A model generated the notes under the pieces. The model did no database searches. It was not told the origin of the DNA and saw nothing but the letters and a program-made list of their open reading frames with translations. Below, in pieces: positions 14,182 through 42,406 of a stretch of 64,000 nt of DNA; position 1 is the first letter of the stretch; the number at the start of each line of letters is the position of its first letter. Origin of the DNA: a virus; IMG/VR virus record IMGVR_UViG_3300024252_000004, positions 1 to 64,000 of that record; one strand, given 5' to 3'. A program made the position numbers and the translations under genes.

Positions 14182-14192
14182 TAGGAGATCGA

Positions 14193-19787: not shown

Positions 19788-19841
19788 ATCTGTCTTAATG
19801 GTAAAATGTAAACTGAACTATCTTATGCATAAGGAGTTGTG

Positions 19842-20863: not shown

Positions 20864-22675
20864 ATGAGTATTGACGGAACAAGAGCGGGGTTCGAAGGGG
20901 TAGCTGCTGCTGCCGGTCGCACCGAAGATGCAATAACACAACTGACAGAGTCTATGGTTACTGGTGGTAGGCAGTTCGAACTTATGCTCGGTGCTGCAAA
21001 CTCAATGGTCGATGGGTTTGCCTCTGTTGGAACCGCAATTCAGGGAATTACTAATGGCGTGCCTGGGCTTGAGCTTCTTGGTGGTGTAATTGGTTACGGC
21101 AGTAATGCTATGGATGCTCTTGCTAAAAGTGTCACTGCCCTTATGGATACATATTATCAAGGGATGGGAGCCTTAGACGCTCTGAGTGCTGGACACAGAG
21201 CTCTCTATGGCGACATCTATGATGTAGGTACTCAATTCGGCAAAACTTTTGATGAGGCTCGTAGGTACGGTCAAAACATTAAGATGGTCGCAGCATCAAT
21301 TATTGGTGCTGATTTTGGTTGGCTCAAGGAGGAAAACCTTGTCGAGACTGCCAAGGCTCTTGCCGGTAACAGGGTAAGCCTTGATAGATTTGGAGATTCA
21401 ATCATTTCTTCTGCTGGAAAAATGGATCTTTTAACCGCAGCAACACTACAGGCTGGAGCTTCTGGTCTTGAGACGGCAGACTATTTCCAAACACTTTCTC
21501 AGGCTATGATTCGACAGGGTCTTGAATCGCAAGAAGCAATGGAACAGTTGGCTGGGTTCAAGGATACAGCGGAAGCAACAGGTCTCTCTGTCAAATCAAT
21601 CTCCGATGCACTTTCGAACCTTGGAAATACATTTTCTAAGATTGGACTCGCAGCAGACTTCGGCCGACCACTGGTAAAGAGCTTTGGTGATACGATTAGC
21701 GACATGGGGCTCGGTATTGAAAATGCAACTGAGCTTGCAGCAACTCTTTCAAACTCATTAGGAGCATTAGCTACCGATTACTCAACCATGTATGTGACTG
21801 CTCAAAGAGGAAATCTCGGAAGCATGATGGGTGGTGGAGCATTGGGCGCAGGCATTCAATTCCAAGCTCAGTTACTTGAAGCTGAAGGTGACCCGCAAGC
21901 ACAAGCCAAACTCGGTGGAGAAATGGCGACAGCACTGAGGGATACGATTGCCTCATTTGCTGGTGGAGATATCACTACGGTCCAAGAGGCTGCATCTAAT
22001 CCTGCACTCGAAGCTCAGTTCTATACTCAGCAGAGAATGTTGCAGCAGATGTACAACTTAGATGACCAAACAGCAATCAGAACATTAGACCTTCTTGATA
22101 GAATGGGCAAGGCAACCGAGTCTGGAAACTCAGACCTTGCACAAAGTCTTGGCGAAGACCTAACAGATATGATCACTAAGAATGATGAGACAATGGATCT
22201 ACAGGAAAAGGCAAACGCCTTCCTATCCGGTTTACTCTCAGAGGCTATGTCCACTAACGAAGCTCTTTTCTTTATTGGAAGAGAGACGCTGGGCGAAGCT
22301 GCCCTTTCAGAGATGAATGACGGTATGCGCGGGGGCCTTGATAAATTGCAAGAGGTTATGGGTGAGCATAGATCTGCTGCTGAAGATTCAATCAAAGCTG
22401 CAAGGAATGGGGACAATTCCCTTAAGGATCATATCAGTTCTATTTTCGGAGAAGCCTTCGGAACATCTGATGATCCAAAAGATGGAAAGGAAAATCCTTT
22501 AGGTGGAATCTCCAAGTATGATGAAATGATGTCGAATATTGATGCAATGATTCAAGATAATATTCTGACCAATTCTGCGGTTAGACAATTTATGAGTTTG
22601 GTCGGAGGAAACACTGCGACCGTAGATGCATCACCAAGTACAGGCCCAGGAACCGCTGGCGCCAAAGCAAACTAA
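20864..22675 (+). CDS. Tape measure protein
   Basis: A 603-residue, mostly helical protein rich in Ala, Gly, Ser and Met, following the frameshifted chaperones. Residues about 40-115 contain hydrophobic glycine-rich segments (GLELLGGVIGYGSNAMDAL), the rest alternates amphipathic helices, and a second glycine/methionine-rich part (GSMMGGGALGAGIQFQAQL) lies near residue 325. The tape measure fills the tube, sets its length and is ejected with the DNA. At roughly 0.15 nm per residue, 603 residues would correspond to a tail of about 90 nm, which is short beside the very large baseplate genes. The start has only a distant AAGGA site. Confidence 0.78.
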   Translation: MSIDGTRAGFEGVAAAAGRTEDAITQLTESMVTGGRQFELMLGAANSMVDGFASVGTAIQGITNGVPGLELLGGVIGYGSNAMDALAKSVTALMDTYYQGMGALDALSAGHRALYGDIYDVGTQFGKTFDEARRYGQNIKMVAASIIGADFGWLKEENLVETAKALAGNRVSLDRFGDSIISSAGKMDLLTAATLQAGASGLETADYFQTLSQAMIRQGLESQEAMEQLAGFKDTAEATGLSVKSISDALSNLGNTFSKIGLAADFGRPLVKSFGDTISDMGLGIENATELAATLSNSLGALATDYSTMYVTAQRGNLGSMMGGGALGAGIQFQAQLLEAEGDPQAQAKLGGEMATALRDTIASFAGGDITTVQEAASNPALEAQFYTQQRMLQQMYNLDDQTAIRTLDLLDRMGKATESGNSDLAQSLGEDLTDMITKNDETMDLQEKANAFLSGLLSEAMSTNEALFFIGRETLGEAALSEMNDGMRGGLDKLQEVMGEHRSAAEDSIKAARNGDNSLKDHISSIFGEAFGTSDDPKDGKENPLGGISKYDEMMSNIDAMIQDNILTNSAVRQFMSLVGGNTATVDASPSTGPGTAGAKAN

Positions 22676-22684
22676 GGGGATACA

Positions 22685-23584
22685 ATGGCAAAAAGAAATG
22701 TAATGCGATTTATCGTGCCGGTGGATTTGGATAGCCTTAGTTCATTCAACGTCTCAGCACGAGCAGTTATACCATTCTATGTAAACCCTGAGAACATTCA
22801 GATTCAGGATACAAAGCTGATTCAGAAGACACTAACGAAAGGTGGCTTTTCTGTTCAGTATTGGGGAGAGGACTTGTCCACCATGAGTGTCAGTGGCACA
22901 ACTGGATCAGGCGGTATCGAGGCTGCTTATTTGTTAAGAGACGTATATAGGCACGAGCAAATTCAAATGAATGGAATTATACTGGAGCGGATTAAGGAGG
23001 CTCAGATAGCCGCAGTCGCTGCATCAGCCAATGCAGAAGCATCTCCGGATACAGCTTACAATCTCATTGACCAATTAACTGGTGGAGCGGTGTCTCAAGT
23101 TGTTGATGGATTCAACTCTGTTATCGATGCAGTAAGCAACTCTTATTCGACAGAGGATCCTTCAATCGAAAAGATATACTTAACCCCAACAGCGGCAGCA
23201 TTTGCTACATCTATTGACCTTTACTTTGGTGGAGAAAGGTATAGAGGTTACTTCGAAAACTTTTCTATTACAGAGAATGCTCAGTCTCCTGGTATAATAA
23301 ACTATCAGTTCAGCTTTGTCATCACACGTAGGTGGGGTACAAGAAAGAACTATATGCCATGGCACAGAAGTCCCAGAGATATTGCTGGTAAACCTGTGCC
23401 TGCATCACCACCATCACAAGGTGCTGCTGTCGAAGAACTTTCTTTTCAAACAAGAGCAACTCAGCAAAGTCTAACTAACCCAGACCTTAGAAGCGAAAAA
23501 GATTCGCTTAACGAATTTGTTTCAGATGAAATTGTTCCCGAAGTAAACGCAGTACCGATCAACAGATCGGACAGTACTAAATGA
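22685..23584 (+). CDS. Distal tail / baseplate hub-proximal protein
   Basis: A 299-residue protein. Residues about 30-110 read FYVNPENIQIQDTKLI, then TKGGFSVQYWGEDL and a glycine-rich strand, then LLRDVYRHEQIQ; residues about 175-225 have a beta strand set ending KNYMPWHR. This pattern occurs in a family of myophage tail proteins encoded between the tape measure and the hub, known to me only as structural. The last 75 residues are polar and probably disordered. The stop overlaps the hub gene start (ATGA), suggesting the two proteins are made and assembled together. Confidence 0.6.
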   Translation: MAKRNVMRFIVPVDLDSLSSFNVSARAVIPFYVNPENIQIQDTKLIQKTLTKGGFSVQYWGEDLSTMSVSGTTGSGGIEAAYLLRDVYRHEQIQMNGIILERIKEAQIAAVAASANAEASPDTAYNLIDQLTGGAVSQVVDGFNSVIDAVSNSYSTEDPSIEKIYLTPTAAAFATSIDLYFGGERYRGYFENFSITENAQSPGIINYQFSFVITRRWGTRKNYMPWHRSPRDIAGKPVPASPPSQGAAVEELSFQTRATQQSLTNPDLRSEKDSLNEFVSDEIVPEVNAVPINRSDSTK

Positions 23585-26500: not shown

Positions 26501-28371
26501 ATACTTCAACAATCCTCGGCATCTTTGATCCTATTTTTCAAGAAGAGAAGAACCTTGTAAATAACTTACTCACAACCTCAATGAACGTTGAGGGTATTCC
26601 TGCCATTGAGTATGCTACGGCTGCTGGGCTGAATGCGGTAAGAGATGAGTTCAGAAAGGTAGGCGGATTCGATGCAGCCTCGGGAATCATTGGCAACACC
26701 CAGAGATTCTCTGAGAAAGATTTTGTCTTCTTTGCGGGGCATGATGAGGGCCGAAGGGCTGGGCTAATTGAGATGTATCTCGATGAATTAGCGTCTACAA
26801 TATCCAGCAGAGATAGGCTCGTAACAATCCTCGTCAGAAACGAGGAGAAAGCTACTGAGCTTGATGAGATTAACTCCATTCTTTCTGGTGAGTTTACAGA
26901 GGCTACAGGTGGTGATGATGGTGAGTTCGAAACTCCCATCTCGGACTTCATTGAGGGTAACATCATTGAACCGCTTGAAAAGACAGCCACAGCCATCAAG
27001 ACAATTAAGGATATCTTTACTGGAGAGGCAACAAAGAACTCATTGTTCGACCATCTCGTTGAGGATGATACAAGAAACCTTGTTGGCCCAGGCTCAGGAA
27101 GAAGATTCATCATTGAGGACCATGACATTAGATCATGCACATTCACCGAGACACCTCCAGAATTCAATCGAATTGATGTTGTTGGCGATGCACCATTAGG
27201 ACTTGGTTCGGCTTTGCAGTCAGAGTTTGAAGACAAATACTTCTGGGCAGGAGCTACTGATTTTGATTCGTGGAGACAGTTCGGTTACATAAGTGGTGGA
27301 ACAAAACAGCTTCCATTCGCAAGTGATCCTGAGCTTCAGTGTAGACCTTATGCGATTATGGAATTGCAACTTCAGAGAACCCAGATCAATAGGGGGGTAG
27401 TCACAGTAAACGGAAACGAATTCTATGCTCCGGGTGATGTTGTATTCATCAGAGATCAAGGCATGCTTTATTATGTCACGAGTGTATCGCATAGCTTTGC
27501 TTTTGGCGGCGCCTTTGAGACGCAGTTAAATCTTGAGAACGGACATGCCCCAGGTATCTATCTTCCAAGCCCAATTGATATCATCGGACAGGAGCTTACA
27601 AAGAACTTCCTTGAAGACGGCGCAATGCTTGTATACAGAAACCAAGATGGTGATGATTCATACAGAGCACTACAGCCAGACAGCAATCTTCTTTTCCCAG
27701 CAGGATTACAAGTTGAGGCTCCGGATAAAAATGTCAGCACTTTCCTTGATTACAAAAACAATCAGGTAAAATACACAAACATGATGATCGATCTTAATAC
27801 GATCACGGTTGGAAATAGAATGATTCTCCTCAGAGCTTTCGTAAAGGGAGATGCAGATGTTGCTGATGTAACAAAGAGACTTCAGGTTGTAAGACACCTC
27901 TTGGAGAATCCAATGCAAATCAGCCAGACAAATGGTGCTGGCGGAGATGATCTTTTTGACCTGAATGTGAATCTGAATGTAAATGTTGGTAGCTCCAAAG
28001 AGCTTAACACGATGATTCTTCCTAACGGTCTTGCGGCATCTCCAGTTCCATCTGATAGGATTCTTGAGCAAATAGTTTATCTTGACGGAACGGAAACTAC
28101 TGAGTTCTTATGCCTGAACTCTCAGCTATTAACTGGGGCTACACTTAAGGATAATATTAAAGCTCAGATTGATAAGCTATCTGTTGATGCAGGCAACTAT
28201 GCAGCAGTCTTTCCTAAAGGTGGACCCAAACAGAGTAGTTGGTTAGACCTTAGAGATGACTTAACAAACATTACGCGTATTATTGAAGTTGGAGTATTAG
28301 ATGTGCAAGCTGCTATCGAAGATGCTTCCTCCGAATCTGGAGTATCTGTAAACGTAGACCTTGGATTGTAA
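23581..28371 (+). CDS. Baseplate hub protein, very large
   Basis: A 1596-residue protein placed between the hub-proximal gene and the spike gene. Residues about 790-830 (SILEKCQHATKFINFEFF, then a stretch ending EFRPPQWNR) and about 1284-1310 (PGDVVFIRDQGMLYYVTSVS) match the pattern of hub proteins of the gpD/gp27 class, which have a domain that reads like a strand-rich ring and a late OB-like segment. The N-terminal 750 residues are additional helical and beta domains not seen in the small hubs of P2 or T4. The hub joins tube, spike and wedges. Cysteines are few. Other large baseplate proteins of jumbo phages are an alternative reading. Confidence 0.65.
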   Translation: MSFNLSLNKSIENILTGALSGKYPVVGRGLRIDLGESAVTATQPASRNIVVQEPQASIIIKKKEFSNFKHLNDLQWLDRTEKMYLRTVKALFAYKCAQIRAYEALTKFEQVFATDHEVPLEIFSDILSTAKFFETTDPNAFITNFEAATLFQNALTNSFPAKEYNDVRDDILKIAKRGAFQSSLPFTTWIVDPDNIENFGTGPGTGSMELGTFTNFSTSCDLNASPSSASVYMEDPYRITHITESEIELAIEEALYGTLGIINEIGMGTIDLATFDAKSVVGAAFEIAGGPLDTGIDTDYIRNQLRYNYMGKPFINAGDAISVFIRGNKTLQDYDDGHLFNEDLLAIDETILEAERYLYTDKKISFEDYKKIRSLQENSLAMQQVYGGVVLKTSRSFSSGFWSLSLECEDNMKWLDWSRFMIEPALQDPQGILEDPLTPYEIRTDALGIPLVGEGPKLIDENVELLNSGLLAYDSGIFNGQYATETNLLQGQYNQTGSASGTKIMQHANGFVYRWKTGIITATAGALLRDPLNEKDITLKMLNQTYGLSVAEDVLNNLDVANVLSLLIVGQPYNVESFMEQAYQAHNISKATSASSLSPTDPLTSVIDVIKRQNIRIGGFRPYRMITLSQSSLEETATSNLIRGELNEKIKLLRQRKIELSTLIGRLRTSDSEGNAVFIRTMNEELQAVQLGIQEQIKIANSTTLDTADLLTSNFNLLGRNRVLPLTGNFSADYNITRAMMIVGARRRIEDVRLNRDDNLFIVSDQYEENTDIRAYILKLRDSNYRIFDGNFISILEKCQHATKFINFEFFCNPQGHLEFRPPQWNRTPLSVLERLFQMSEEEGRTVIPPFLTQMFEDRSSSLRREVHGHNIQIVLLSLLLGRYPDSSLIPNFRDPSLVTIWKRGNEAITRAYLRFFGVNPEGLASGGDKKTLLRAGFTATVLGDLVNTGNQLIGDGLSVSFGTGEDGDTINADTSTILGIFDPIFQEEKNLVNNLLTTSMNVEGIPAIEYATAAGLNAVRDEFRKVGGFDAASGIIGNTQRFSEKDFVFFAGHDEGRRAGLIEMYLDELASTISSRDRLVTILVRNEEKATELDEINSILSGEFTEATGGDDGEFETPISDFIEGNIIEPLEKTATAIKTIKDIFTGEATKNSLFDHLVEDDTRNLVGPGSGRRFIIEDHDIRSCTFTETPPEFNRIDVVGDAPLGLGSALQSEFEDKYFWAGATDFDSWRQFGYISGGTKQLPFASDPELQCRPYAIMELQLQRTQINRGVVTVNGNEFYAPGDVVFIRDQGMLYYVTSVSHSFAFGGAFETQLNLENGHAPGIYLPSPIDIIGQELTKNFLEDGAMLVYRNQDGDDSYRALQPDSNLLFPAGLQVEAPDKNVSTFLDYKNNQVKYTNMMIDLNTITVGNRMILLRAFVKGDADVADVTKRLQVVRHLLENPMQISQTNGAGGDDLFDLNVNLNVNVGSSKELNTMILPNGLAASPVPSDRILEQIVYLDGTETTEFLCLNSQLLTGATLKDNIKAQIDKLSVDAGNYAAVFPKGGPKQSSWLDLRDDLTNITRIIEVGVLDVQAAIEDASSESGVSVNVDLGL

Positions 28372-28374
28372 CAC

Positions 28375-30762
28375 ATGTTTTCTGATTTAATTTTTGAGGC
28401 AATAATTGTCGACATAAATAGAGCTACAGGACACTGTACTTTAAACCCTACAACTGCAAATGAGAATGATACCGTTCCATCAGTTAAGCTTCCACACTTT
28501 GCAGGTGCTGGAAACGCAGGACTATTTGTGGGGCTAAGCATCGGCACAAGAGTTGTTGCGGCATATACCTCTGGCAGAAGCAGAGAGTCCGCAGTAATTC
28601 TGAACACTCTTCCGAAGGCAGAGCTATATCCAGATTCTTTTTCAGTCAATAACGGAAAAGGTGTTCGAGTTGGCACACAACCTTACCCAGATATAAAGGA
28701 ACATTCTACTGTTCTGCGAGGAAATCGCGGAGCAGAGATTGCGCTTCATGATAACGGAGACATCTCCCAGACAATCGCAGGTGGTGGAGGTACGTTCCTC
28801 AGAAATAATGGAATGAGAACTTCGTACACTACAGTGTCTGAGGCTATATCAGAATACTCTCAGGCAGGCAGAAGCATCTCTGGTGCAGCGAATAGAATTA
28901 GTCCAACAGTGAGGGCTCAGTCTCAGAAGGAAGGTCTTGCAGAGATTCCTTTATTTGCAGATACATTTTTCGCACAGCTTGCAGAGCCAAAGGGGTTCTT
29001 CCATGGTAGCCCTGCAAGATTACAGACTCTTGGCACATCACTCAGGAACCCTGAGATGTCAGAACATAGACACGTCATTAATGAGTTCAGTACGGACAGC
29101 ATGTTCACAGGATTTGTAGATGAAGTATCTCGACTGCAAGGCAACTTATCACTATTCACATATAGTGATGCGTTCCAAAGAAACAGGGAACCTGCGAACT
29201 CTTTACATATGGCGGAGCACGAACTTGTAGAGATCATTGGCGGAAACCTAATCGATATTCACGGCAAAGTTCTTGACATTAACTATCGCGAATTGAACTA
29301 CGGTGGTCCAGAGAATAAGGTACCCACTAAGCAAGTAGAGCAGTCATTTGATAGAGCGAGGAGAATTTCTCGTAGAGGTGTTGGATACCATTTCCAGTTG
29401 GCAACCAACTCTCGCAAAACTGACCCAAGCGCCTATGAAACAAATTTTGCTTTTGATGTAGATAAAGAAGGTGTATTCAAGTTGACTGTTCCAAGGTCAA
29501 CTAACACAGGAAACATTCCATTCACATCATCAGCAGACTACACTGCCCCTGGAGACAACGTAAATGTCTCTCTTGCCCAGGAATCTTCCAGCGAGAGGAT
29601 CCCTGTCATGTTGAGGGATAAGAATGGCGTTCCGTTAATCCCTGCTGGCCTCGAAGAATCCGAAGAAGGCAGAGGTACTGGAGTTAGGTTTTCCAATTCA
29701 AGGAAGAGTCCTTACTTCCCAGCACAAAGTGACACTGGAGTTGCAACCAGCCTTAGAGTTAACACGACAAGATACCATAATATGTATGCTGCTTGCGAAA
29801 GGCTCTTCGGAACCACAGTGCAGAAGGTATATATTCCGGAAGAGTTTACAAATAACTATGGCATCGGACAGGGCAACGCAACTGGTCAGCCATTCGAGGT
29901 ACTGGTTCCGTTAGAAGATCAAGAAGGCGAAACCAATGACTCTCCTATCGCGGCAATCTTGGATATCGCAGAGTATCTTTCAGATCCTAAGAAGCTCATC
30001 GAAGTTATTATCGAAGGAAGCAACTATGATGGATATCCTAAGTTCATGTCTACTGTGGGTGTTGGTCCCGAGCAGCCTGCAATTTATCCAGGTGGAGATA
30101 CAGTTGTTGCTGGAAATATTTTTGAGGATGATACTTTAAATCCACCATTCTCCAATCTTTTTGAGCTTGAGCTTGATGGTGATAACTTTGAAACAGAGAT
30201 TGTTGATGAAGGTGGAAATCCGGCAGTGGACGCTGGCGGTAGATCGGCCAATCTAAACTTCATGGGTCTGGTTGAGATGTCAATTGGCGCAGATAATTTT
30301 GATAAGAAGAGCTTAGTGCTTGACACTGAAGGCTCAGTAGTATCTTGGATTGGAAAGGATAAGAACAATAGAAGCATCATTACACAGACGGATGGAGGAG
30401 TCTTTGTTAATATTGGTGGTACATATAGCGGACAGGATACAACTGCTCCGCAGATGAACCCAGGAAGATTCTCTATGAGAGTTAATCTAACTGACAAAGG
30501 TTTCGTCGATTCTCAGTATGATAGTAGTGCAGTTGAAGATGATGAGAACAAGAACCCTATGGGCAACTCAGATGTGATGATTGATATCAGCGAAGCTGGC
30601 ATTGTTATTGCGGGTATGAATCCAGGCATTCCAATGGTCATTAGAAACTCTGGACAAATTCTTATTGAAAGCTCAGCCTCCCTAACTCTTAAGGGCAACA
30701 GGGTTGAAGCAGTCGGACCAGATGGTAAGGCGATTAACCTCTTAACAACGAAAAATGGATAA
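28375..30762 (+). CDS. Baseplate spike protein with N-terminal OB-fold
   Basis: A 795-residue protein. Residues 1-85 form an OB-like barrel (FEAIIVDINRATGHCTLNP, then a KLPHF strand and LFVGLSIGTRVVAAYTSGR), the usual start of gpV/gp5-type spikes. The middle is extended and polar. The C-terminal 180 residues are repeated short strands with Asp/Gly turns ending in strands such as QILIESSASLTLKGNRVEAV, consistent with an intertwined beta spike. No lysozyme domain was seen. It follows the hub gene after three bases, as spike genes do. The spike pierces the outer envelope when the sheath contracts. Confidence 0.72.
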   Translation: MFSDLIFEAIIVDINRATGHCTLNPTTANENDTVPSVKLPHFAGAGNAGLFVGLSIGTRVVAAYTSGRSRESAVILNTLPKAELYPDSFSVNNGKGVRVGTQPYPDIKEHSTVLRGNRGAEIALHDNGDISQTIAGGGGTFLRNNGMRTSYTTVSEAISEYSQAGRSISGAANRISPTVRAQSQKEGLAEIPLFADTFFAQLAEPKGFFHGSPARLQTLGTSLRNPEMSEHRHVINEFSTDSMFTGFVDEVSRLQGNLSLFTYSDAFQRNREPANSLHMAEHELVEIIGGNLIDIHGKVLDINYRELNYGGPENKVPTKQVEQSFDRARRISRRGVGYHFQLATNSRKTDPSAYETNFAFDVDKEGVFKLTVPRSTNTGNIPFTSSADYTAPGDNVNVSLAQESSSERIPVMLRDKNGVPLIPAGLEESEEGRGTGVRFSNSRKSPYFPAQSDTGVATSLRVNTTRYHNMYAACERLFGTTVQKVYIPEEFTNNYGIGQGNATGQPFEVLVPLEDQEGETNDSPIAAILDIAEYLSDPKKLIEVIIEGSNYDGYPKFMSTVGVGPEQPAIYPGGDTVVAGNIFEDDTLNPPFSNLFELELDGDNFETEIVDEGGNPAVDAGGRSANLNFMGLVEMSIGADNFDKKSLVLDTEGSVVSWIGKDKNNRSIITQTDGGVFVNIGGTYSGQDTTAPQMNPGRFSMRVNLTDKGFVDSQYDSSAVEDDENKNPMGNSDVMIDISEAGIVIAGMNPGIPMVIRNSGQILIESSASLTLKGNRVEAVGPDGKAINLLTTKNG

Positions 30763-30769
30763 CAGTTAG

Positions 30770-33700
30770 ATGGCATCATTTGTAGAAGCATTCGTTCCCC
30801 CATTCTCATTCGATGAGTGCGTACAGTACGTCCTCGAATGTGAGGGCAAACCTTCGTCTGAAACCGGTGCTGGAGATCTTGATGTTATTTTTCCAGAGTT
30901 CCTCGGAGACTGGCTTCCACTTGCTGGAGGCTCCATCGTCAGGTTCGATCAATCTAATTGGGGCTTGTCTGCCGATGAGAAGGTAGATTCTCTTGTCGGA
31001 AAGAGGCTGGCAGACCTTGGCGATCTGCAACTCAAGAATACACTCGATTCATTAAATGAATTCAGGATGACGCTGAATCGACTCCTTTTCAAGATGAGGG
31101 AGTTCAAGGTTCTTGAGTCCGGTGCTTCATCTAAGCCGCCAAAATTATTCTTCTCTTACTACCAGGGTGATGATGCTCTCCTTGATGACGAGAAGTCAAG
31201 TTCAAGCATTACGAGGATGTGTAAGTTCAAGCACATCCCCTACACTGCATTTAATATTGCTCTATCCTTGGTGGTACCAGCAGAAGAAGAGGATGACGAT
31301 TTTGGAAACGTCGTGGGAGCTTCAGGAAAGACCTTCCGTGAGTTGCTTAAGGCATCCGAAAAACCAAAGGAAAGCGACATCATTGATCTCGTCCTTGAGA
31401 TGTTCGCTGTTTTCAATATCAATGAGGACGACATTGTAAAGTCCAGAGGACCAGCAACAGAGGGCGGGTACTATACCATCTTTGATGAGAAGCTTTACAT
31501 TAAAATGCCTGACATAACCGGACGAGACTCCGCAGGCTACTACTCTGACATCTTTGACAAAGATTCTCACTTCTACATTGAGGCATCGAAAGGAAGAAGG
31601 AGCTACGGTAGGGGAGAATTCCCACTGATTGCTCTGCCCATCCTTGCAACGGTAGATGATGCCTCTGTGCCTTTGCCTGACACTGGCGACGTAGAAATTA
31701 CTATCGATACCGCAACAGATGCTAAAGACATTAAGAATGCATATTTATCTATCCTGTCCGTAGGTCAGACTGTTGAATCTTCAAAGAGGACGGTCAGATT
31801 CTACTCTGATAGCTTAGAAGTATTTTCCATTCCGATGCTTACCATCAATGATTACTTCAAGAACAGAGAGCCTACTATCGAATATGATCTGTCAACTAAG
31901 ACGGATGATATCGAGTTCTACATCAAGCCTGAAGAGGGTGGTATTAGTGTTGGTTCAGATAAAGAGAGTGCCGAAGAGACAGGCGTTCCGTATCTCGGCG
32001 GAGAATATTCTGCCGAGAGTTTCTTTGGTGAAAAGAATAGGGCAGAGATTGTCCTGACAGACTCAGAGAGCCCGGAAGCTGTAAACAAAAATGACAGAAG
32101 GTTCTTCTCTCCAAAAGCATACGGAGCGGTGCCTGTACTTGCAGGTGTTAGACCAAGAGTGCATCAGACAGTTCCAACAAAATGGATAGAGATGAATAGG
32201 GCAGAAGAAGGAGACGACGAAGATAAAGTTAGACTCCTTTTTGATCATTCGAAATTTGATGTGGTTAACTTCGATGCACTCAGCAATGAAGCATCTTTCG
32301 CCCTCTACTTGGAAGACGGCAATGGTCAAATCATTAAGGCTGCGGGTGAGAACATTACAATCTCTACTGGTCTGCCAACGGTTACAAAGGTTTCTCCTGA
32401 CGGATATAAGGGATCAGATGAGATCCTCGCCACATTAAAAGGAACTATCCTTCGCTTCTCTGGCGAGGGATTAACGAATGCAATTGGCATCAACGTTACG
32501 ATCAAAGGAACTGATTCAGTTACCACTACATTGTTCTCCGATCCTGCACTGGTCTACACTGGAAGTTCCACGCTTTCAACATTAGAGTGCAGCGCTCAGT
32601 TATCCTACATTGGTTTGGAACCTGGGCAGGAATACGAACTTTCGCTTCTTAGTATCTCTGGGGAAAGTGGGAATGGTAATTGCGTCTACGTGAATACAGC
32701 AGAGGGTGAAGAGCAGATCAGTAAGTCTAAAGAGCTTGCCAAGTTCAGGATCGATGAGTTCTCAGTTAGACGATTCAAATCAGGATATGTGAGTGAAATC
32801 CCTGTTCTCACAGAGACAAGCGCAGTCTTGCAATTAAAATCAAAGCAGAGATTGTTCACGGGAAATCTTGATATCTTTGCATACATTGGAATTACAGACA
32901 AAGATGTAGCTACCGCTATTGGTGGCGATGATGTGCTTGAGGTATCAGCAGTTGGCAAGACATTCTACGTTCCTCATAACTTAGAGTATGAATTTTCAGC
33001 ATCAGCAAGCGCCGATTTCTCAAGAAAATTCTTTAACGCAAGAGCTGACCTATCAATTCCTGGTTCCAGATATCAAAACTATAACCTTTTCCCATTGCTC
33101 AATGCACCGATTGGTTCTGCGATTATCTTTTACAACAAAAGGATCATAGAAGATGCTCCGACAGGAGTTGTTACCCCAGAAGATGGGGACTATGCAATTA
33201 CATGGCTCGGGCATAATGATGGAAGAAAGCCATTCGTGCTTGGACCGACGGTTCTTGGTTTGGTTGCGGAGCAACCCGGTGGAGAAGGACTCACTTCTAC
33301 ATTCACAATTGAAGAGAAAGATGCGGAGATTAAAAAATCATTTGGCGGAGCAACTCCTGACGTTGGAAGCATTTCAATGTTCCAGAACCTTACGAAGCTT
33401 GGCATCGTATTCTCATGCTCAAAAGGTTCAAACCTCAGAAGGCAACTTACGTTCTATATTGGGAAAACAAAACTGTCTGGACTTTCTGAAAAAATTAAAG
33501 ATCTTGGTGGTGGCAGATTCCTTGCTACGTTTGATAATGTATCTATCAAGGAAGAGGGCGTGCTTGAGGTACGCATTGAGAAAAAGGATAAGGTATTCAG
33601 ATATACCTCAAGTGGAGTTGTAGCTAAGAGAGCCTCATTCGGAATCGACGCGGGCACATACGCATTCAATCAGGATGATGGTGAGCTTACTCTCGGAGAA

Positions 33701-36700
33701 AGCTCCGTCAATTTCTATTCTGATGGTGCAGTAGACACAGATACAAATGCAGCGGATCTTATGATCCCGGGCGGAACATCTGGAGTTCTATTGAATCAGG
33801 CAACATCAACTGAGGCTGAACATAAATTCTTGTATCCGTTAACCATTAGACCTAACGTGTCAATGAAGATTAACATCAGCAATGTAACGTCACTTATCGG
33901 TGGGGCTTCAAACGAAATAGATGACTTAGAAAGATCTTATATGCAGGTTGACTCTGGGGAGGTAATGACGGGACGATCATTCTCTATCAGCGAGACTGGC
34001 TCAGCAGTTGGATATCTAAACTGGGACCTCACGAATGCTGCTACTATCAAGTGCAACGTTCCTGAAATTACGTTAATCAAACCAACCATCGAAGCAGCAA
34101 ATGGATTCACTCCCGACAAGATCAATGGTTCTTTATTGACAGCCGGCAGTGAGATTAAGATTGAAGTAGAGAATTGCAAAAAGAACTTCAAGGTTATCTT
34201 TAATGGCTTGTTCGCAGCGAAGACCAAGGGTCCGCCGCGACGCATCTCTCGTGGTAAGTATGAAGCTGTCATCACAGTTCCAGATGCGGTCATAGCATTT
34301 GACTGTATTGAGATGTGTGTGTCTACTGCCAACTCCCGAAGGCTTGGAGCTAAGCTCGCCATGGGAGAAAAATTCGTTCAGAATATCGGAAAGAACATGA
34401 CCGATAAGCTTGAAGGATTCATGAAGGACAAGACACCTGATATTGATGACCTAAAAGGGCTCATCAAGAAGTTCCCTCTTAGGTTCCTTCAGGTCAAACT
34501 TGACAACTCATTGGTACCGCTTGACCTTATCAAATCTTTCTGTGATTTCTCATGGCACTTAACAGCGGATCTCAAGATTGCGCTTAACGGTTTCCAAACA
34601 CTGCTCATCCCTATTCAGGTTATCCTTTGTATCATCGACGTTATCTGTTCTCTGTTACATCCAGGCAAACTGGCAAGTGCAGTCATCAGGTTGTTCTACT
34701 GTCTCTATGATCTATTGTTACTGCTTCCACAGATCTCTGTGCCAGTTATGTTCTTCAGCCTCATACTTCACCTCTTGAATCTTCTTGAGTGTGTTATCGT
34801 TAAGATCATTGAGACCGTTGTGGCCATCAATGAAATCATAAAGGCAATCGAGATAGCGACGCAGCAGCAGAACCTTTGGGACGCAATCATCACTCTTGAA
34901 GAGGTTATTAGCGAGTATCTTTTTGAATTGAATGTGGACTTGGATGTCCTCGAACCTATCATTTCAATCCTTGCAATCTTCCTACAGATTCTTGAATTGA
35001 TTTTCAACTTCCCATGCCCTCCGGACGACGGCATTGGAGATAAGAGTTGCGGTATTCAAGGCTCTATGCTTGCAGGTATGGTAGCAGGAAAGGTATCTCC
35101 TGGCGATGGAGAATATGATCCGGAGGCTTTAATTCCGGTTGCTCAATATTATACCAATGATTCAATTGAGGATATGATCAGCTCAAACTCTGGCAGTAGC
35201 TATGAAGAGTATAGTCTCGGAGACTCAATTATTGATCAAGGTACTGAAAGCTCATACCTGGAAGCAATGGATATTGATCCTGAGTCTCTAAGGACTACAA
35301 ATGGAGAAGACTTTGATGCTGCGTTCTCTGTATCATTCACTAAGTCAACTAAGGGGCTTGGGCAGCCTACTCTTGTCAAATTCAAATTCAAAGACAAACT
35401 TGACAACTCTGGGTTCTTTAAGAAAAAGGTTCTTGATCCTCTTTTGAATAGGGATGCTCCATTCCACCTTCTCGATAATGACAATGGCACATTAAAGATC
35501 GCTTCTGGTAAGGGCAACTTCATCAGTCCACTTGATGGCACCAAGTTCATCACAAAGGATGGAGAGACCGGTTCAGTTAAGCCTCTTACACTCACCTTCG
35601 AGTTTCCAATTATGGAACCTAACCCTGACACAGGGATGCTTGAAGAGACAGGTATCGAAGAGGTCACCAGAACATTTGATGATATTCCTAAAATGGCAAT
35701 AATGGATGAAGAGGGTAACCTGTACTTCATTGAGCCTGACGGAATTGAATTCGATAGCGACAACAATATTGATCAGATCAAAGCAAGAATTATAAATGAC
35801 ATCTCTGCACCTAAGTTTAGGTTCACAAGGGATGATCAAGAAGTTGATACCGACGATGACGATGTGCCAGATGATGAAGGCAGAGTGTTTGACCTTCCTC
35901 AGCTATTCTTTGTGGACATGAGATCGATTGCTGACGAACTTCAGAACTCTTGTTACGCAGCATCTTACAACGAGTTCCTGCTTGAGAACGAAGAGACTGG
36001 TGACACAGACGATATCGCAGACATCGTAGAGGGAGCGGTTGACTGTATCGAAACATACAGAGCCATCATCAGAGATATGATGAAACAGGTTAGGGAGTCA
36101 CTACAGGCAGGAGAAATTCCTGACCCAATGGATCTCGAAGCTATTGCTGAAGCACATCAGGCTCTCATCGATTGTTTGACTGACTCTGCTGATAGCATGT
36201 GTAGATTTGTTATGAACCCATTAAACTCTTCCTTCTTAATTGAGGAAGATGATGATGAGACTCCGCTCGCAGAGTACCCGGAGGTGTTTGATCCTTCAGA
36301 CCTCGATAATATCGATGTTGAGCAGAGCGGACCATCCTTCACTGGAGCAAGAGAGTTTGCTGGCGGTATTGGTGATAGCCATATTCTGGATATTGGAAAA
36401 GTAGCTACCATTAGAGTTACGCCTCGTGACAGCTATGACATAGAGATGCCAGGAGACTTGTCCGATAAAATTAAGATTAACATTCTGTCTGACAGTACAG
36501 GTAGTGCAATGATTCTTAAGAATGATGACGGTACAACTATAGAACAGAATGGCTCCGACTACTATGTTAGGATTAGTTCTACCAACGAGGGAGAGGTTAA
36601 GCTTGGAGCTTCAGTCTGTGGAAGGACTATTGCAGCGGTTACATATGCTGGAATTACAACCACAGAGGAAGAGGAAGAAGTTGACTGTGTGCCAGATGCT

Positions 36701-36871
36701 CCATCCGAAGTAGAGGAAGCTGCGGCCACAAGGCCAGGAGCACTTGTTAAGGTCGACAGAGTCTTAACACTTTACTACGTAAGACTTGCAAGCACCGCAA
36801 CTATTAAGCTTGATGGCGGAAAGACTGCAACCAGTACAGCTCAGACCTTCGGAACCGCATTGGAGAACTAA
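30770..36871 (+). CDS. Giant baseplate-region protein with hydrophobic helical stretch
   Basis: A 2033-residue protein between the spike and wedge genes. It begins with a globular alpha-beta part, then beta-rich domains; IPT/TIG-like strands appear near residues 533-585 (PTVTKVSPDGYKG) and 1097-1150. Residues about 1276-1414 are strikingly hydrophobic and helical: LLIPIQVILCIIDVICSLLH, then a second segment with LFYCLYDLLLLLPQIS and FFSLILHLLNLLECVI, and a third near LEPIISILAIFLQILELIF. After this come acidic beta domains. It has no recognised family name. Hydrophobic stretches in a tail protein could form a membrane pore or pack into a helical bundle. Confidence 0.6.
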   Translation: MASFVEAFVPPFSFDECVQYVLECEGKPSSETGAGDLDVIFPEFLGDWLPLAGGSIVRFDQSNWGLSADEKVDSLVGKRLADLGDLQLKNTLDSLNEFRMTLNRLLFKMREFKVLESGASSKPPKLFFSYYQGDDALLDDEKSSSSITRMCKFKHIPYTAFNIALSLVVPAEEEDDDFGNVVGASGKTFRELLKASEKPKESDIIDLVLEMFAVFNINEDDIVKSRGPATEGGYYTIFDEKLYIKMPDITGRDSAGYYSDIFDKDSHFYIEASKGRRSYGRGEFPLIALPILATVDDASVPLPDTGDVEITIDTATDAKDIKNAYLSILSVGQTVESSKRTVRFYSDSLEVFSIPMLTINDYFKNREPTIEYDLSTKTDDIEFYIKPEEGGISVGSDKESAEETGVPYLGGEYSAESFFGEKNRAEIVLTDSESPEAVNKNDRRFFSPKAYGAVPVLAGVRPRVHQTVPTKWIEMNRAEEGDDEDKVRLLFDHSKFDVVNFDALSNEASFALYLEDGNGQIIKAAGENITISTGLPTVTKVSPDGYKGSDEILATLKGTILRFSGEGLTNAIGINVTIKGTDSVTTTLFSDPALVYTGSSTLSTLECSAQLSYIGLEPGQEYELSLLSISGESGNGNCVYVNTAEGEEQISKSKELAKFRIDEFSVRRFKSGYVSEIPVLTETSAVLQLKSKQRLFTGNLDIFAYIGITDKDVATAIGGDDVLEVSAVGKTFYVPHNLEYEFSASASADFSRKFFNARADLSIPGSRYQNYNLFPLLNAPIGSAIIFYNKRIIEDAPTGVVTPEDGDYAITWLGHNDGRKPFVLGPTVLGLVAEQPGGEGLTSTFTIEEKDAEIKKSFGGATPDVGSISMFQNLTKLGIVFSCSKGSNLRRQLTFYIGKTKLSGLSEKIKDLGGGRFLATFDNVSIKEEGVLEVRIEKKDKVFRYTSSGVVAKRASFGIDAGTYAFNQDDGELTLGESSVNFYSDGAVDTDTNAADLMIPGGTSGVLLNQATSTEAEHKFLYPLTIRPNVSMKINISNVTSLIGGASNEIDDLERSYMQVDSGEVMTGRSFSISETGSAVGYLNWDLTNAATIKCNVPEITLIKPTIEAANGFTPDKINGSLLTAGSEIKIEVENCKKNFKVIFNGLFAAKTKGPPRRISRGKYEAVITVPDAVIAFDCIEMCVSTANSRRLGAKLAMGEKFVQNIGKNMTDKLEGFMKDKTPDIDDLKGLIKKFPLRFLQVKLDNSLVPLDLIKSFCDFSWHLTADLKIALNGFQTLLIPIQVILCIIDVICSLLHPGKLASAVIRLFYCLYDLLLLLPQISVPVMFFSLILHLLNLLECVIVKIIETVVAINEIIKAIEIATQQQNLWDAIITLEEVISEYLFELNVDLDVLEPIISILAIFLQILELIFNFPCPPDDGIGDKSCGIQGSMLAGMVAGKVSPGDGEYDPEALIPVAQYYTNDSIEDMISSNSGSSYEEYSLGDSIIDQGTESSYLEAMDIDPESLRTTNGEDFDAAFSVSFTKSTKGLGQPTLVKFKFKDKLDNSGFFKKKVLDPLLNRDAPFHLLDNDNGTLKIASGKGNFISPLDGTKFITKDGETGSVKPLTLTFEFPIMEPNPDTGMLEETGIEEVTRTFDDIPKMAIMDEEGNLYFIEPDGIEFDSDNNIDQIKARIINDISAPKFRFTRDDQEVDTDDDDVPDDEGRVFDLPQLFFVDMRSIADELQNSCYAASYNEFLLENEETGDTDDIADIVEGAVDCIETYRAIIRDMMKQVRESLQAGEIPDPMDLEAIAEAHQALIDCLTDSADSMCRFVMNPLNSSFLIEEDDDETPLAEYPEVFDPSDLDNIDVEQSGPSFTGAREFAGGIGDSHILDIGKVATIRVTPRDSYDIEMPGDLSDKIKINILSDSTGSAMILKNDDGTTIEQNGSDYYVRISSTNEGEVKLGASVCGRTIAAVTYAGITTTEEEEEVDCVPDAPSEVEEAAATRPGALVKVDRVLTLYYVRLASTATIKLDGGKTATSTAQTFGTALEN

Positions 36872-38589
36872 TGTCAGATACAACAGACCAGGAAGTAAAA
36901 TTAAAAGCTGCTATCGACGCAGCAAAGATATCGCTATCGAAAACCTTTGGCGATGCTGGAGCGGATAAGTATGAGTCATTGACTTATTTTCAAGAGGATG
37001 GCTTGGCAGAAGCTTACCAAAAGGAGGAGGTGTTTACCAATATGGCTAAACAGTTCTCCTCCCTTGGCAAGGAAGTGCGCTCAATGCGTTCATCATTTCT
37101 TCCAGTTGAGCTATTCAAAGAGGATGGAGCTTTATCTCCGGAGCTATCTGATGGACTCGGGAAACTTGAGTCTCATGAGAATGCTTTTATGAGAATGCTT
37201 GGAATGCCTCAGTCTGACGAACTTGGGCTTGCTTCGGGTGGAGCTTCAGATGATGATAGTGCGCAAACGGGTTCCATTACTTATGTCACAAAAAGCGGAG
37301 AGCATAAGCCTGGAGCTTCCTTTGCCGATGTAGAAAGAGAAGTTCTTGATCAACGTGCTAAAAGAAAAGCAGACAGAAAAGTTAAGGTCAACAATTACAT
37401 TTTCGATTTGGATAAAAAGACTGCTGATGAGGTCAAGAAAAAAGATGCAAATAGCCTTTCATTGAATGATGAAGTTCTTGACGAAGTCGATTATCCGAAA
37501 CTTGATGAGTTTGAGCAAAACCCATATGCCTTTAGCTACTTACTTTTTCCACCAATTCAAGACTCACGATTCTCAAAGTGCATTAATGAACCGGGAAAAA
37601 TCGTAGCCCCACTCTTCGGCAACCAGAGAGCAAGGCAAATCAACTCTACGAAAATTAAGCCGACGCTTCTTGAGAGCATCATAAGGATAAGAATCGACAG
37701 ACTCAGCGGTCAAGATTCGCAGAAGTCCTTAAAGATTGCGGCAGATAATATGGTCGAAGATGAAGCTGCGGTTTCTATAGATATCAGTGTAGGCTCAGGA
37801 GAAGAGGAAGACACAGTTGTTCCTTACAGTGAAAGCTATGGCATCCTTGAGGCTCTATTCATCATTAGACTGAGGAGCGCCATCCTTGGGCTGTCAAGAA
37901 AATTTGCGAAAGACAGAGAAGAGATTGTTGCGTCCATGGAGAAGATTGGAATGAAGGTAACTGAGCCAGGACCAGAGCCTGACCCAGATGGCTTAGGTTC
38001 TACATCAAATGGAGAAGCTTCTACCACCACAGAGTGGGATGAGATGATGCCCCTTGTTGCAGACTTCCTTGCAAAATCTCGTTTAGAAGAGCAGCTTCTA
38101 ATTGAGGATTCAATGATGGCCTTATTTGGTAACAGTTCTGGAGCAATTGATTTGCAGAAGAATACACAGAGAAACTCTTCTGTTCACGATGCTCACCTTA
38201 TGAGCGGACTTATTGGGGTTGTTGATGTCCCGCGTGGACGAATCAGAGAAAGGCTTGCTGAGATCCAAAGCAGAAGGGCCAATAATGTAATTTCCCAGAT
38301 TGACCCAATTAGAGAAGGTATCAACGCAATCCTTGGTACAGACATTGGAATTGGCAATCTCGACATGCTCGTATTCTCGCTTGCTCTTTTCTCAATTTCA
38401 GAAGTACATCTGCTAAATCTCCTATCAGACTCAGCTTACGACAGATTAAAAGAAGCTACACTTGGCGACGCGCTGGACAATATTGCGGATCGTAGTCTTG
38501 GGCGCGAAGGCAGAATTGCAGCAGTTAATGAAGTTACTGATTTCGCATATGCAGGCTATCAGGTTTTTGTAAAAGGAATTGCTGGCTGA
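36871..38589 (+). CDS. Unrecognised tail/baseplate protein
   Basis: A 572-residue protein, mostly helical, charged in the N-terminal half, with a probably disordered linker near residues 365-385 (Pro, Asp and Ser/Thr-rich) and a C-terminal helical part containing LVFSLALFSISEVHLLNLLS. Its ATG overlaps the upstream stop (TAATG). A 63-base gap follows it. No family is recognised. The position between the giant baseplate protein and the gp25-like wedge protein suggests a baseplate component or assembly factor. Confidence 0.55.
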   Translation: MSDTTDQEVKLKAAIDAAKISLSKTFGDAGADKYESLTYFQEDGLAEAYQKEEVFTNMAKQFSSLGKEVRSMRSSFLPVELFKEDGALSPELSDGLGKLESHENAFMRMLGMPQSDELGLASGGASDDDSAQTGSITYVTKSGEHKPGASFADVEREVLDQRAKRKADRKVKVNNYIFDLDKKTADEVKKKDANSLSLNDEVLDEVDYPKLDEFEQNPYAFSYLLFPPIQDSRFSKCINEPGKIVAPLFGNQRARQINSTKIKPTLLESIIRIRIDRLSGQDSQKSLKIAADNMVEDEAAVSIDISVGSGEEEDTVVPYSESYGILEALFIIRLRSAILGLSRKFAKDREEIVASMEKIGMKVTEPGPEPDPDGLGSTSNGEASTTTEWDEMMPLVADFLAKSRLEEQLLIEDSMMALFGNSSGAIDLQKNTQRNSSVHDAHLMSGLIGVVDVPRGRIRERLAEIQSRRANNVISQIDPIREGINAILGTDIGIGNLDMLVFSLALFSISEVHLLNLLSDSAYDRLKEATLGDALDNIADRSLGREGRIAAVNEVTDFAYAGYQVFVKGIAG

Positions 38590-39094: not shown

Positions 39095-42000
39095 ATGGCA
39101 AACCAGAGAACCTTCAGCCAAATTGTACAGTCAATGATGGAGAGGCTAAGACTAACACAGCCGAACTTGGACACAAAAAGCGGAACTGTTTCTAGAGATT
39201 TGTTTGTTGACATTCAGGCTGATGAATTTGACAGGCTCTATAAATCTATGAAGATTGTGTCTAACAAGCAAAGCCCGGAACTCGCAAGAGGCCGGGACAT
39301 TGATCGTTGGGCCCGTAACTATGGTTTGCTCAGAAAATCTGGAGCATTGGCTAACGGTATCGTGGTCTACACGACCAATGAGCTTAACTCTGATATCCCA
39401 ATTCCTAACAGTACAGTTAACACAGGAAAAAACGGTTATCAGTTTAAAACAATCGGCAGCTATGTTATGTCTGTCGCAGAGAAAAACAAATATGCTGCTA
39501 ATGCTAACAGGCTAAGATCTGCACTGAACCTTGCAGGCATTACAGATTCATTCGCGATTGAAGTCCCTGTCTCTGCCACAAGAGTTGGCACCAGTGGAAA
39601 CATCGCACCACTTCAGATTGTCAGTTCCGATCTTGCTGACGGGTTAAAGGTAGTTAACTTAGTATCCTTTAGCGGCGGAGCAAATTCAGAATCTGATGCA
39701 GCATTTAGAGCAAGGATCTTTGCTGTATTCAGTGGAGCTAACACGGGTACCGCATCGGGATATAGGAATGCCGCCCTCGGAACGAGTGGTGTCTTAGATT
39801 CCCTCGTCGTAAAACCAGGAAGCACTTTGATGCTTAGAGACGGCACAGAGACTATCGAAGTCAATGATGGCTCCTTTCGTATCCTTAACTCGGGAACAGG
39901 CGGAAAGGTAGACGTATATATCCTTGGTAAGAATCTTGAAGAAATCACTGAGTCTTATATCTACTCTGATTTGTCAGGAATCGGAGACCCTACAGATGAA
40001 AGGAATGATTATATCCCAGGACTGTTTGGTGTCGACAATTCTTTGACCTCAGAAGAGAGGAGAGTCCAAGCTTTCGAAGAAGGGAAAATTCCACTTCAGC
40101 CTGTGGATACCATTGTCTCTGTAGTTGGAAGTAGCTCAGGTATTTTTGCAGAAGCAATCATTGATGCTGACGGGAATCTCATAGGAAATTATGAACTTGT
40201 TAAAGATGAGAACGTAGAGACTGGCGGTAGTCCATTCGGGTTCGATAAAGTTAGATTCATTTCAAATATTAAAAACGTTGATGGTGAAAGCATTACTAAA
40301 TCTGCCATCAATAGTGTTGATGCGCTAAGATTCTCTGATGTTAAGCAGATTGAATCTGTTTATCAGGATGTGCAGATCTCCGGAGAGAATTCATCACGAG
40401 CACCCTCTGACAGATCAATCATTATTCTTAACCATACACCTATCGTCAGCGTGAGTCGAGTCTCTAACGTATCAACTGGAGAGGTTTATGCTATCGAGAA
40501 CCAGAACTTTGATTCCTCAGGTCTAAATGAGAGCGGAGAGATCTCGATCTCTGGTAAGACTCTGCCATCCAGAGCTGACGTTTTAAGTGTGGACTACACA
40601 TGGCGACACATGTTTGATAACTACATTGATTTCAATGGAGCAGAAATTGTTAGCATGTTCGAAGATGAGGACGTATCTGATTCGGTTGACTGGGGCGTTG
40701 GTAATGGAATCACAAATGAACTTTCAATAATCACACAGACAGATGATGGATTCGAATACACAATCGAAACAGATTTCTCAATCAGCAGAGTCCTTTCTGC
40801 ATTCTTTGCGGAAGAGGTTACTGCGACAGTAGCGTTGGTTGCTGACTCTGATGGTGTGGAGGTTAAGGGTCTTGAGCTTGAAGCTACAGACTCTGAAATT
40901 GATAACCTTATCTCCGTTACTGACAGTGATAAGGTAGAAGTCTATGACACTATTGATGCGAATGGAACCTTCTCAAGTAGGACTATTTACTTGCCTGACG
41001 ATACATCTGCCGTAGTAGGTGAGGAGCTTGTTGTCTTCTATAACAAGGTTGAGCTATTCGACATTGATGATGGAAATGGTTCATTCTCTGATACTACAAT
41101 TACCCTCCCATCTCAGGATATCTTGGAAGGCTCCAGCCTCTTTGACTCTGTTGATGAGGCATTCCTTTCCGAAGAGGATGTCTATGTTACATATGTAGCT
41201 GAGATTAACGAATTAATACCGACACTATCACTAACCTCGCTACCGATCAATGGAAGTGGTACGAGCAATGCACTGTTTGATTCCTCATTAACTTCCCTTG
41301 TAGGCAGTAACCAGCCTGTCTTCTTCGTTTACGATGAAGGTAGTGCAGTGATTGATATTTCAAGGTTTGGCCCTGCCAGGGTTGGAGTTGAAGTATCAGG
41401 CACAATCAAGCCGGGAAGAATTAAGGTAGTCGGAACTACCCTGAAGAGATATGAGCTAACCCTTACAGCAGGGCTGTCTATTTCCGGGCTCACCTTTGAT
41501 ATCGAGTCTGAATTAAAGGAACTTATGAATCTTTCATCTCTGCCAAGCTCATTGTTTGTAGCGAGAGTAGACAGCGTTGTAGGACTTGACTCAGATGTTG
41601 AATACGACTTGGCTGGTCAGCTATTAATGGATAACACTTATAGCTTTGGAGTAGCCGGACTTGATGATACTCTTGATGCGACAGAATTTACCCTTCCATC
41701 CACTGAGAACAATGACGAGATCAGTCTATCTAGTGGAGAAGAGGTTAAGGTTTCTGTTTTGATTGGAGACTCTAATGATTTCGAGACTCTATACTTCGGA
41801 GCAGACATGGAAGTAATCACAGACAAAAGATTCGCAAGGATTAGCACTGTTTCAGTATCATCTGGATTCAGAAGCTCTGCCGGAACTCTTGTTGGCACAG
41901 CAACTGTGACTCCGGTTAATCAACCAGATGATGGACTTACTTACAACGTAGTTTACAACTTTAAAGCTCCAACTGAAGGCGAAAGGATTTCCGTCAAGTA

Positions 42001-42406
42001 TAATCTGAATAGACTCGTAGGAACAGTGACAAGTAATATTGAAACTGTCCGACCAATCACCGCAGACGTTCTTGTGAAAGAAGCTTTCGAGATTGATATT
42101 GATGTTGCAGGAGAGATTGTCATCGCAAGTGATGCGGAGTCTGGAAGTCAGACCGTACTTGAGAATGTGATCAGCGCTGTAGTCAATCTTCTGAACACTT
42201 CATCCTTGGGCTCATCAATAGACTACTCTGATATCATTACGGTAGCAGCCGGAGTAACCGGAGTGGAGTCTGTAAATATTTCCCAATTCAATGAATCTGG
42301 AAAGCAGGGAAGAAAAACTTCTATCAGATCTTTGGACAACCAGAGTATCGTAGCGGGAAGCGTAAGCTTTACTGCCTCTTCAAGACAAGATTTTAGAATC
42401 ACTTAA
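39095..42406 (+). CDS. Baseplate wedge protein, J/gp6-like
   Basis: A 1103-residue protein. The first 320 residues have the Baseplate J pattern: a helical start (SQIVQSMMERLRL), SKIDRWARN-like helix ending RDIDRWARNYGL, beta strands of the central domain and GGANSESDAAFRARI at about 194-208. The rest is a chain of beta-rich, Asp/Ser-rich domains probably added at the wedge periphery. The gp25-like gene lies just upstream. gp6-like proteins form the wedge ring that links hub and fibres and transmits the contraction signal. The length is about twice to three times that of T4 gp6-like proteins in small phages. Confidence 0.82.
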   Translation: MANQRTFSQIVQSMMERLRLTQPNLDTKSGTVSRDLFVDIQADEFDRLYKSMKIVSNKQSPELARGRDIDRWARNYGLLRKSGALANGIVVYTTNELNSDIPIPNSTVNTGKNGYQFKTIGSYVMSVAEKNKYAANANRLRSALNLAGITDSFAIEVPVSATRVGTSGNIAPLQIVSSDLADGLKVVNLVSFSGGANSESDAAFRARIFAVFSGANTGTASGYRNAALGTSGVLDSLVVKPGSTLMLRDGTETIEVNDGSFRILNSGTGGKVDVYILGKNLEEITESYIYSDLSGIGDPTDERNDYIPGLFGVDNSLTSEERRVQAFEEGKIPLQPVDTIVSVVGSSSGIFAEAIIDADGNLIGNYELVKDENVETGGSPFGFDKVRFISNIKNVDGESITKSAINSVDALRFSDVKQIESVYQDVQISGENSSRAPSDRSIIILNHTPIVSVSRVSNVSTGEVYAIENQNFDSSGLNESGEISISGKTLPSRADVLSVDYTWRHMFDNYIDFNGAEIVSMFEDEDVSDSVDWGVGNGITNELSIITQTDDGFEYTIETDFSISRVLSAFFAEEVTATVALVADSDGVEVKGLELEATDSEIDNLISVTDSDKVEVYDTIDANGTFSSRTIYLPDDTSAVVGEELVVFYNKVELFDIDDGNGSFSDTTITLPSQDILEGSSLFDSVDEAFLSEEDVYVTYVAEINELIPTLSLTSLPINGSGTSNALFDSSLTSLVGSNQPVFFVYDEGSAVIDISRFGPARVGVEVSGTIKPGRIKVVGTTLKRYELTLTAGLSISGLTFDIESELKELMNLSSLPSSLFVARVDSVVGLDSDVEYDLAGQLLMDNTYSFGVAGLDDTLDATEFTLPSTENNDEISLSSGEEVKVSVLIGDSNDFETLYFGADMEVITDKRFARISTVSVSSGFRSSAGTLVGTATVTPVNQPDDGLTYNVVYNFKAPTEGERISVKYNLNRLVGTVTSNIETVRPITADVLVKEAFEIDIDVAGEIVIASDAESGSQTVLENVISAVVNLLNTSSLGSSIDYSDIITVAAGVTGVESVNISQFNESGKQGRKTSIRSLDNQSIVAGSVSFTASSRQDFRIT

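Follow-up and report, generated by a model that had tools for sequence, protein, structure and literature searches.

A conserved hydrophobic helical module in a baseplate-region protein of uncultivated contractile-tailed phages is a candidate membrane-conduit element

The passage of DNA through the cytoplasmic membrane once a contractile tail has fired is poorly understood. Opening of the membrane for DNA entry is usually assigned to a tail protein other than the one described here. The tape measures of diffocin (CD1366), TP901-1 (TMP) and Pam3 contain membrane-like helices and have been proposed to act as an inner-membrane conduit (PMC10996793, PMC5099701). For the second hydrophobic region of the TP901-1 protein, the authors of that study question a membrane role and suggest chaperone recruitment (PMC5099701). 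In phi29, the tail knob contains the L-loops of gp9 as a helix bundle, which is later converted into a helix barrel with membrane activity (PMC6542822). The megatron proteins of RcGTA and R4C carry an iris/penetration domain, a set of hydrophobic tail-tip helices proposed to form a membrane pore; in RcGTA the iris comprises about 46 residues at the extreme N terminus, and both tails are non-contractile, with the domain aimed at the outer membrane (PMC7296036, PMC10276861). The R4C tape measure keeps two transmembrane (TM) segments, and the published models make it the inner-membrane channel in R4C as well, with the megatron N termini forming the outer-membrane pore (PMC7296036, PMC10276861).

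We analyzed positions 1 to 64,000 (the window) of the 395,127-base record IMGVR_UViG_3300024252_000004, which comes from an uncultivated phage. Profile matches and gene position identify a contractile-tail operon, whose central genes encode, in order, proteins of 1596, 795, 2033 and 572 aa, a gp25-like protein, gp6/BaseplateJ and a protein of 3218 aa. The genes considered below are as follows:

15901-19110, sheath (PF17482, a weak match)
19122-19730, tail-tube-like protein (phrog_985; also a weak MlaD match, PF02470, E 0.003)
starting at 19839 and 20465, chaperone-like genes
20864..22675, + strand, tape-measure-like gene of 603 aa, assigned by its position after the tail chaperones, with no TM-like segment
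starting at 22685, tube-initiator-like gene (PF23980)
23581-28371, 1596-aa gene, a tail component
28375..30762, + strand, upstream conserved neighbor of 795 aa, OB-fold/spike-like by eye and placed by synteny
30770..36871, + strand, module-bearing tail/baseplate-region protein of 2033 aa, long form, ATG start
36871..38589, + strand, next gene and conserved neighbor of 572 aa
38650..39084, + strand, gp25-like baseplate wedge protein (phrog_2669, E 2e-10; phrog_43, E 4e-4)
39095..42406, + strand, gp6/Baseplate J protein, our synteny anchor (phrog_6, E 5e-36; PF04865, E 3e-21)

The initial annotation had assigned the 2033-aa protein to the baseplate region, and the gp25-like and gp6/BaseplateJ genes just downstream bear this out. 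The same synteny suggests that the protein is part of the virion. In the 1596-aa protein, the region 769-831 is similar to gp185 of Bacillus phage G (E 4e-3) and to phrog_14367 (E 2e-6), and appears to be a tail component common to both phages. Elsewhere in the window, four small genes upstream of the operon (1781-2185, 4914-5252, 5261-5590 and 5768-6235) each encode a protein predicted to have one or two membrane segments, mostly at the N terminus, and are candidate lysis or envelope genes. A TTG-start ORF at 14178-14699 has a carboxypeptidase-regulatory-like/SpaA-like Ig domain (PF13620, E 3e-9), and directly after the tail genes, at 56989-63071, lie four glycosyltransferase-like genes and one DUF7487-like gene.

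Several strongly hydrophobic stretches had been reported at residues 1276-1414 of the 2033-aa protein (34595-35011, within one base of the earlier placement), and both Kyte-Doolittle peaks and a shuffle test agree with this description. Among all 19-residue windows of the protein, hydrophobicity is highest at 1278-1296 (2.63), followed by 1326-1344 (2.28), 1393-1411 (2.21) and 1301-1319 (1.93); none of the remaining large genes in the window peaks above about 1.8. Over 139 residues, the best window starts at 1278 with a mean of 1.36, compared to a maximum of 1.04 in 2000 composition-preserving shuffles (mean 0.49, sd 0.12). Aspartate, glutamate, lysine and arginine account for 13.7% of the segment, compared to 26.1% in the remainder of the protein. 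We conclude that the hydrophobicity of residues 1276-1414 is far beyond chance.

Searches with the whole protein returned only the same virus, and it had no Pfam or PHROG match. Using the segment alone as the query recovered homologues at 37 and then 46 loci, all on viral contigs. The encoded proteins, like the window protein, are of a long form, 1554-2763 aa where complete (the L042 frame is shorter), and are 27-36% identical to it overall. As far as their contigs reach, the gene order is 1596-795-[module protein]-572-gp25-gp6-3218. At L013 (8663-8792), a locus that shares its contig with L020, the module gene is split between two frames, while the near-identical L012 is intact; this split is probably an assembly or sequencing frameshift. 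Mean identity between the window protein and its long-form relatives is 0.61, 0.64 and 0.50 in the bins 1251-1300, 1301-1350 and 1351-1400, compared to about 0.25 (range about 0.11-0.47) in the 50-residue bins outside 1251-1400. The hydrophobic stretch is therefore the most constrained part of a fast-evolving protein. The module to which it belongs is:

34520..35017, + strand, conserved hydrophobic helical module, residues 1251-1416 (about 165 aa), all-helical

Because these loci had been ascertained through the module itself, we repeated the search with gp6 only. This returned 80 loci, and we examined the 46 that had enough upstream DNA. The module HMM matched in 46/46 (E 6e-16 or better), each time in a gene located after the OB-fold/spike-like gene and before the 572-like gene and gp25-gp6. 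This search also revealed a short form of 615-755 aa in which the module lies near the N terminus, starting at about residue 60, and is followed in some proteins by a Big_1/Invasin_D3 Ig-like domain. A profile-profile comparison related the long and short modules with a probability of 99.8 (E 1.9e-29). Scanning for short forms gave 137 places with confirmed relatives, 80 of which were kept for analysis. A 1596 homologue is present in 78/80 of these loci and a 795 homologue in 79/80; for the downstream genes the counts are 71 for gp25 and 67 for gp6, and 69 of the loci extend far enough in that direction. In total, clearly more than a hundred related viral genomes carry the module, and several of the contigs are 400-480 kb long.

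Scanning 84,980 prokaryote genomes twice revealed no relatives of the module. A tblastn search of 50,697 phage records, in which low-complexity filtering may mask the segment, also gave none; because of this possible masking we additionally searched these records with the flanks and several full-length homologues, again without a match. A PDB sequence search with the module produced nothing significant, and neither did Foldseek with medium-confidence models (a 631-aa model against PDB and BFVD, a 246-aa model against PDB). Among the short forms, 2/23 match phrog_305 (E 8.3e-6) and 2/23 match phrog_4200 (E 1.6e-4). Both are tape-measure families, and these weak matches fall on the hydrophobic module where this can be seen; they may come from common composition. 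We found no membership of the module in any named family. The initial annotation knew of no name for such a segment, which is true of this module, but tail-tip membrane-penetration segments are known as a kind.

Two AlphaFold2 monomer runs concur on four helices (about 1249-1296, 1301-1316, 1320-1365 and 1369-1412), supporting at medium confidence the helices claimed earlier for the segment (mean pLDDT 70 and 65, pTM 0.49 and 0.40; pLDDT 71-83 across most of the module in the second model). The features of the module and the region before it are:

34052..34339, + strand, putative Ig domain of IPT/TIG type preceding the module, at about residues 1095-1190 (weak Foldseek similarity to EBF1/EBF3 IPT/TIG, E 0.34 or worse)
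34514..34657, + strand, helix H1, residues 1249-1296 (AlphaFold2/DSSP), hydrophobic half 1275-1296 with the CIIDVIC motif
34646..34648, + strand, C1293, invariant in long and short forms
34670..34717, + strand, short helix H2, residues 1301-1316, proline-flanked, with K1300, R1307 and D1314 on one face
34727..34864, + strand, helix H3, residues 1320-1365, first half hydrophobic and truly TM-like in short forms
34874..35005, + strand, helix H4, residues 1369-1412, second half hydrophobic
35015..35017, + strand, C1416, invariant in long and short forms

The hydrophobic parts are thus H1b, H2, H3a and H4b, which would lie at one end of the module if the long helices are antiparallel. C1293 and C1416 would then be at the same end, making a disulfide between them possible in such a model. 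Invariant residues in the long form include C1293, P1298, P1320, P1325, C1416 and C1427, with C1287 and D1290; the aligned short forms likewise keep C1293, P1298, L1308, P1320 and C1416 without exception. H1b and H2 each have one polar stripe at i, i+7 and i+14, and the rest of their surface, a 321-degree arc, is nonpolar.

To compare membrane propensity, we used our own implementation of a position-dependent insertion scale, so the dG values (kcal/mol) are comparative only and come from one calculation throughout. The three best helices of the window protein score 1.2, 1.4 and 1.8, and long-form relatives go down to about -0.8. In the short forms the median best dG is -3.44, with values below 0 in 76/80 and below -2 in 69/80; three membrane-like helices are predicted in 67/80, and the best scores of the window protein are at the same three positions. 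Among the controls, the TP901-1 tape measure scores -1.22, the N-terminal part of T4 gp29 0.86 and T4 gp7 0.58, and the other T4 tail and head proteins tested score 2.98 or higher. Set against these controls, the short forms look truly transmembrane and the window form borderline. The scale is neither necessary nor sufficient as a criterion, since phi29 gp9, reported to be membrane-active, has no TM-like segment and none with a dG below 3. We conclude that the module has predicted membrane-spanning helices, clear in the short forms and borderline in the window protein.

We next consider what else in the tail could supply such helices. None of 20 tape-measure-like proteins checked, from 14 long-form and 6 short-form contigs, has a membrane-like segment, and the other core tail gene families have none or almost none, except for the 572-aa neighbor, which has a TM-like stretch in 18/33 relatives. 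The earlier claim that no other gene here fills the role thus holds to the extent that no tail gene of the window has a strongly membrane-like segment apart from the module, which is nearly true of relatives as well. The hydrophobic stretch of the 572-aa protein, at about residues 495-518 (GIGNLDMLVFSLALF), is conserved and TM-like in, for example, L024 and L050; the conserved family pattern GxG..D.....LALF looks more like that of a globular helix. This protein may be a partner of the module. We also considered other identities for the module protein. By position it is not a tape measure: the place after the chaperones is taken by the 603-aa gene, and the module gene comes after genes of 299, 1596 and 795 aa. 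Tape-measure family models do not match the 2033-aa protein itself but weakly match the few short forms named above. A T4-type wedge identity (gp6, gp7, gp53 or gp25) was rejected given the absence of any Pfam or PHROG match and the presence of gp25 and gp6 as separate downstream genes, and gp7 in particular is better fitted, by position only, by the 3218-aa gene after gp6.

A serious rival, at least for the long form, is that the module is a permanently buried core that never meets lipid, its helices joined in an oligomeric bundle that keeps the hub or inner baseplate intact and may pack against the hydrophobic helix of the 572-aa protein. Its hydrophobic residues are nearly invariant, and long forms tend to vary on faces other than the hydrophobic ones, although the entropy moments are small. 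Positions 1303, 1310, 1340 and 1344 accept charged and hydrophobic residues alike, consistent with an exposed polar face. Protein packing would predict these properties for at least one state, and the module is therefore likely a buried bundle in the virion. Permanent burial would also fit the regular long-helix arrangement on which both AlphaFold2 models agree, the conserved stretch in the 572-aa neighbor and the TM-like score of T4 gp7, a wedge protein. However, H3a of the short forms has a dG of -3 to -5 and has lost its polar stripe, which is unusual for purely soluble cores, and the tails of phage G, Myrna, Phrappuccino and LE2-3 do without such a segment. We regard a core that stays buried throughout as less likely than a conduit, though the next best reading. 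A pore and a buried bundle had been posed as opposites, but the two can coexist, as the L-loops of phi29 gp9 illustrate (PMC6542822).

The reading we favor, with a probability of roughly 0.55, is that a tail-tip protein other than the tape measure, at the hub or adjacent to the spike, carries the module as a conduit element that inserts into the membrane. In the virion, the long helices would form a bundle that buries their hydrophobic halves. Sheath contraction and shedding of the spike would release this bundle, and H1b, H3a and H4b, with the proline-flanked H2 between them, would insert into the host cytoplasmic membrane as an oligomer through which DNA leaving the tube could pass into the cell. 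The module would thereby take over the role that tape-measure transmembrane regions have in other phages. We infer each of these elements, from virion presence, burial and release to insertion, oligomer formation and DNA passage.

We favor this conduit because the module is the most conserved part of its protein, is present in all gp6-anchored loci and has TM helices in the short forms, while the tape measures and nearly all core tail genes lack such segments; the weak tape-measure PHROG matches and the narrow polar stripes on H1b and H2 point in the same direction. The pore originally suggested is thus supported in part, by a discrete, universally kept module with predicted TM helices in the short forms and none in the tape measure. 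On the other side, the helices of the window protein are borderline, one segment of T4 gp7 has a lower dG than they do, and the hydrophobic faces of the long form are, weakly, not the variable ones, which fits protein packing better than lipid contact. The tolerance for charge at the four positions above also counts against a conduit, as does the large C-terminal region after the module, since with three crossings the parts before and after the module would end up on different sides of the membrane.

Two further alternatives keep the hydrophobic helices but change their task. The module could penetrate the outer membrane rather than form an inner-membrane conduit, as proposed for the megatron iris of RcGTA and R4C; it does sit in a hub or tip protein, and the short forms, with an N-terminal module followed by an Ig/adhesin-like region, resemble the megatron order. 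We consider this improbable, as breaching the outer membrane would be expected of the contractile spike. Alternatively, a tail chaperone could bind the helices during assembly, with no role in infection, as the TP901-1 authors propose for tape-measure hydrophobic regions (PMC5099701). Docking of this kind would not require the invariant Cys, Asp, Arg and Pro residues found throughout the module, and no dedicated chaperone gene was identified beside the module gene, making it the most doubtful of the possibilities considered here.

On the furthest-reaching reading, a large clade of uncultivated and mostly jumbo contractile phages would have moved the inner-membrane conduit from the tape measure into a dedicated, universal four-helix module of a spike-adjacent protein with minimal (about 700 aa) and enlarged (2000-2760 aa) forms, constituting a new protein family for membrane passage in contractile tails. 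We offer this proposal tentatively and rate it at slightly under even odds. Regardless, the module is absent from Pfam and the cultured-phage records searched, and the pattern CIIDVIC...NP...RLF...LPQ...PC provides a marker for this widespread group, of which those records yielded no cultured member. Being universal in the group, small (about 170 aa in the short form) and confined to a protein other than the tape measure, it is a clean test object.

Judged by gp6, the closest cultured phages are Bacillus phage G and some of the actinobacterial phages, with about 25-28% identity over the first 300 residues. Phage G, the Ceeclamvirinae (Myrna) and Phrappuccino have comparable tail gene order as well as gp6 similarity, but no hydrophobic module. 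Scanned against the complete records of phage G, Myrna, LE2-3 and LR745208, the module profile gave no match, and a profile comparison of two possible counterparts of the 2033-aa protein, phage G gp186 and Phrappuccino gp83, found no relation. The conduit reading has precedents in the tail proteins of diffocin, TP901-1, phi29 (gp9), R4C and RcGTA (megatron). As in the diffocin, TP901-1 and Pam3 tape measures, several membrane-like helices occur in one tail protein; unlike in those systems, the tape-measure-like protein has none and the helices belong to a separate protein encoded after the spike-like gene. Compared by description only, the megatron iris is N-terminal, whereas the module begins at residue 1251 in the window protein and at about residue 60 in the short forms. 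The phi29 system differs in being short-tailed, and gp9 residues 417-491, with a mean of 0.16 and no TM-like segment, are much less hydrophobic than the module; neither a sequence search of the PDB with the module nor fold searches with its medium-confidence models gave a significant match. The proposed working principle is nonetheless the same as that of the pore-forming L-loops of gp9, in which a helix bundle in the virion later becomes membrane-active.
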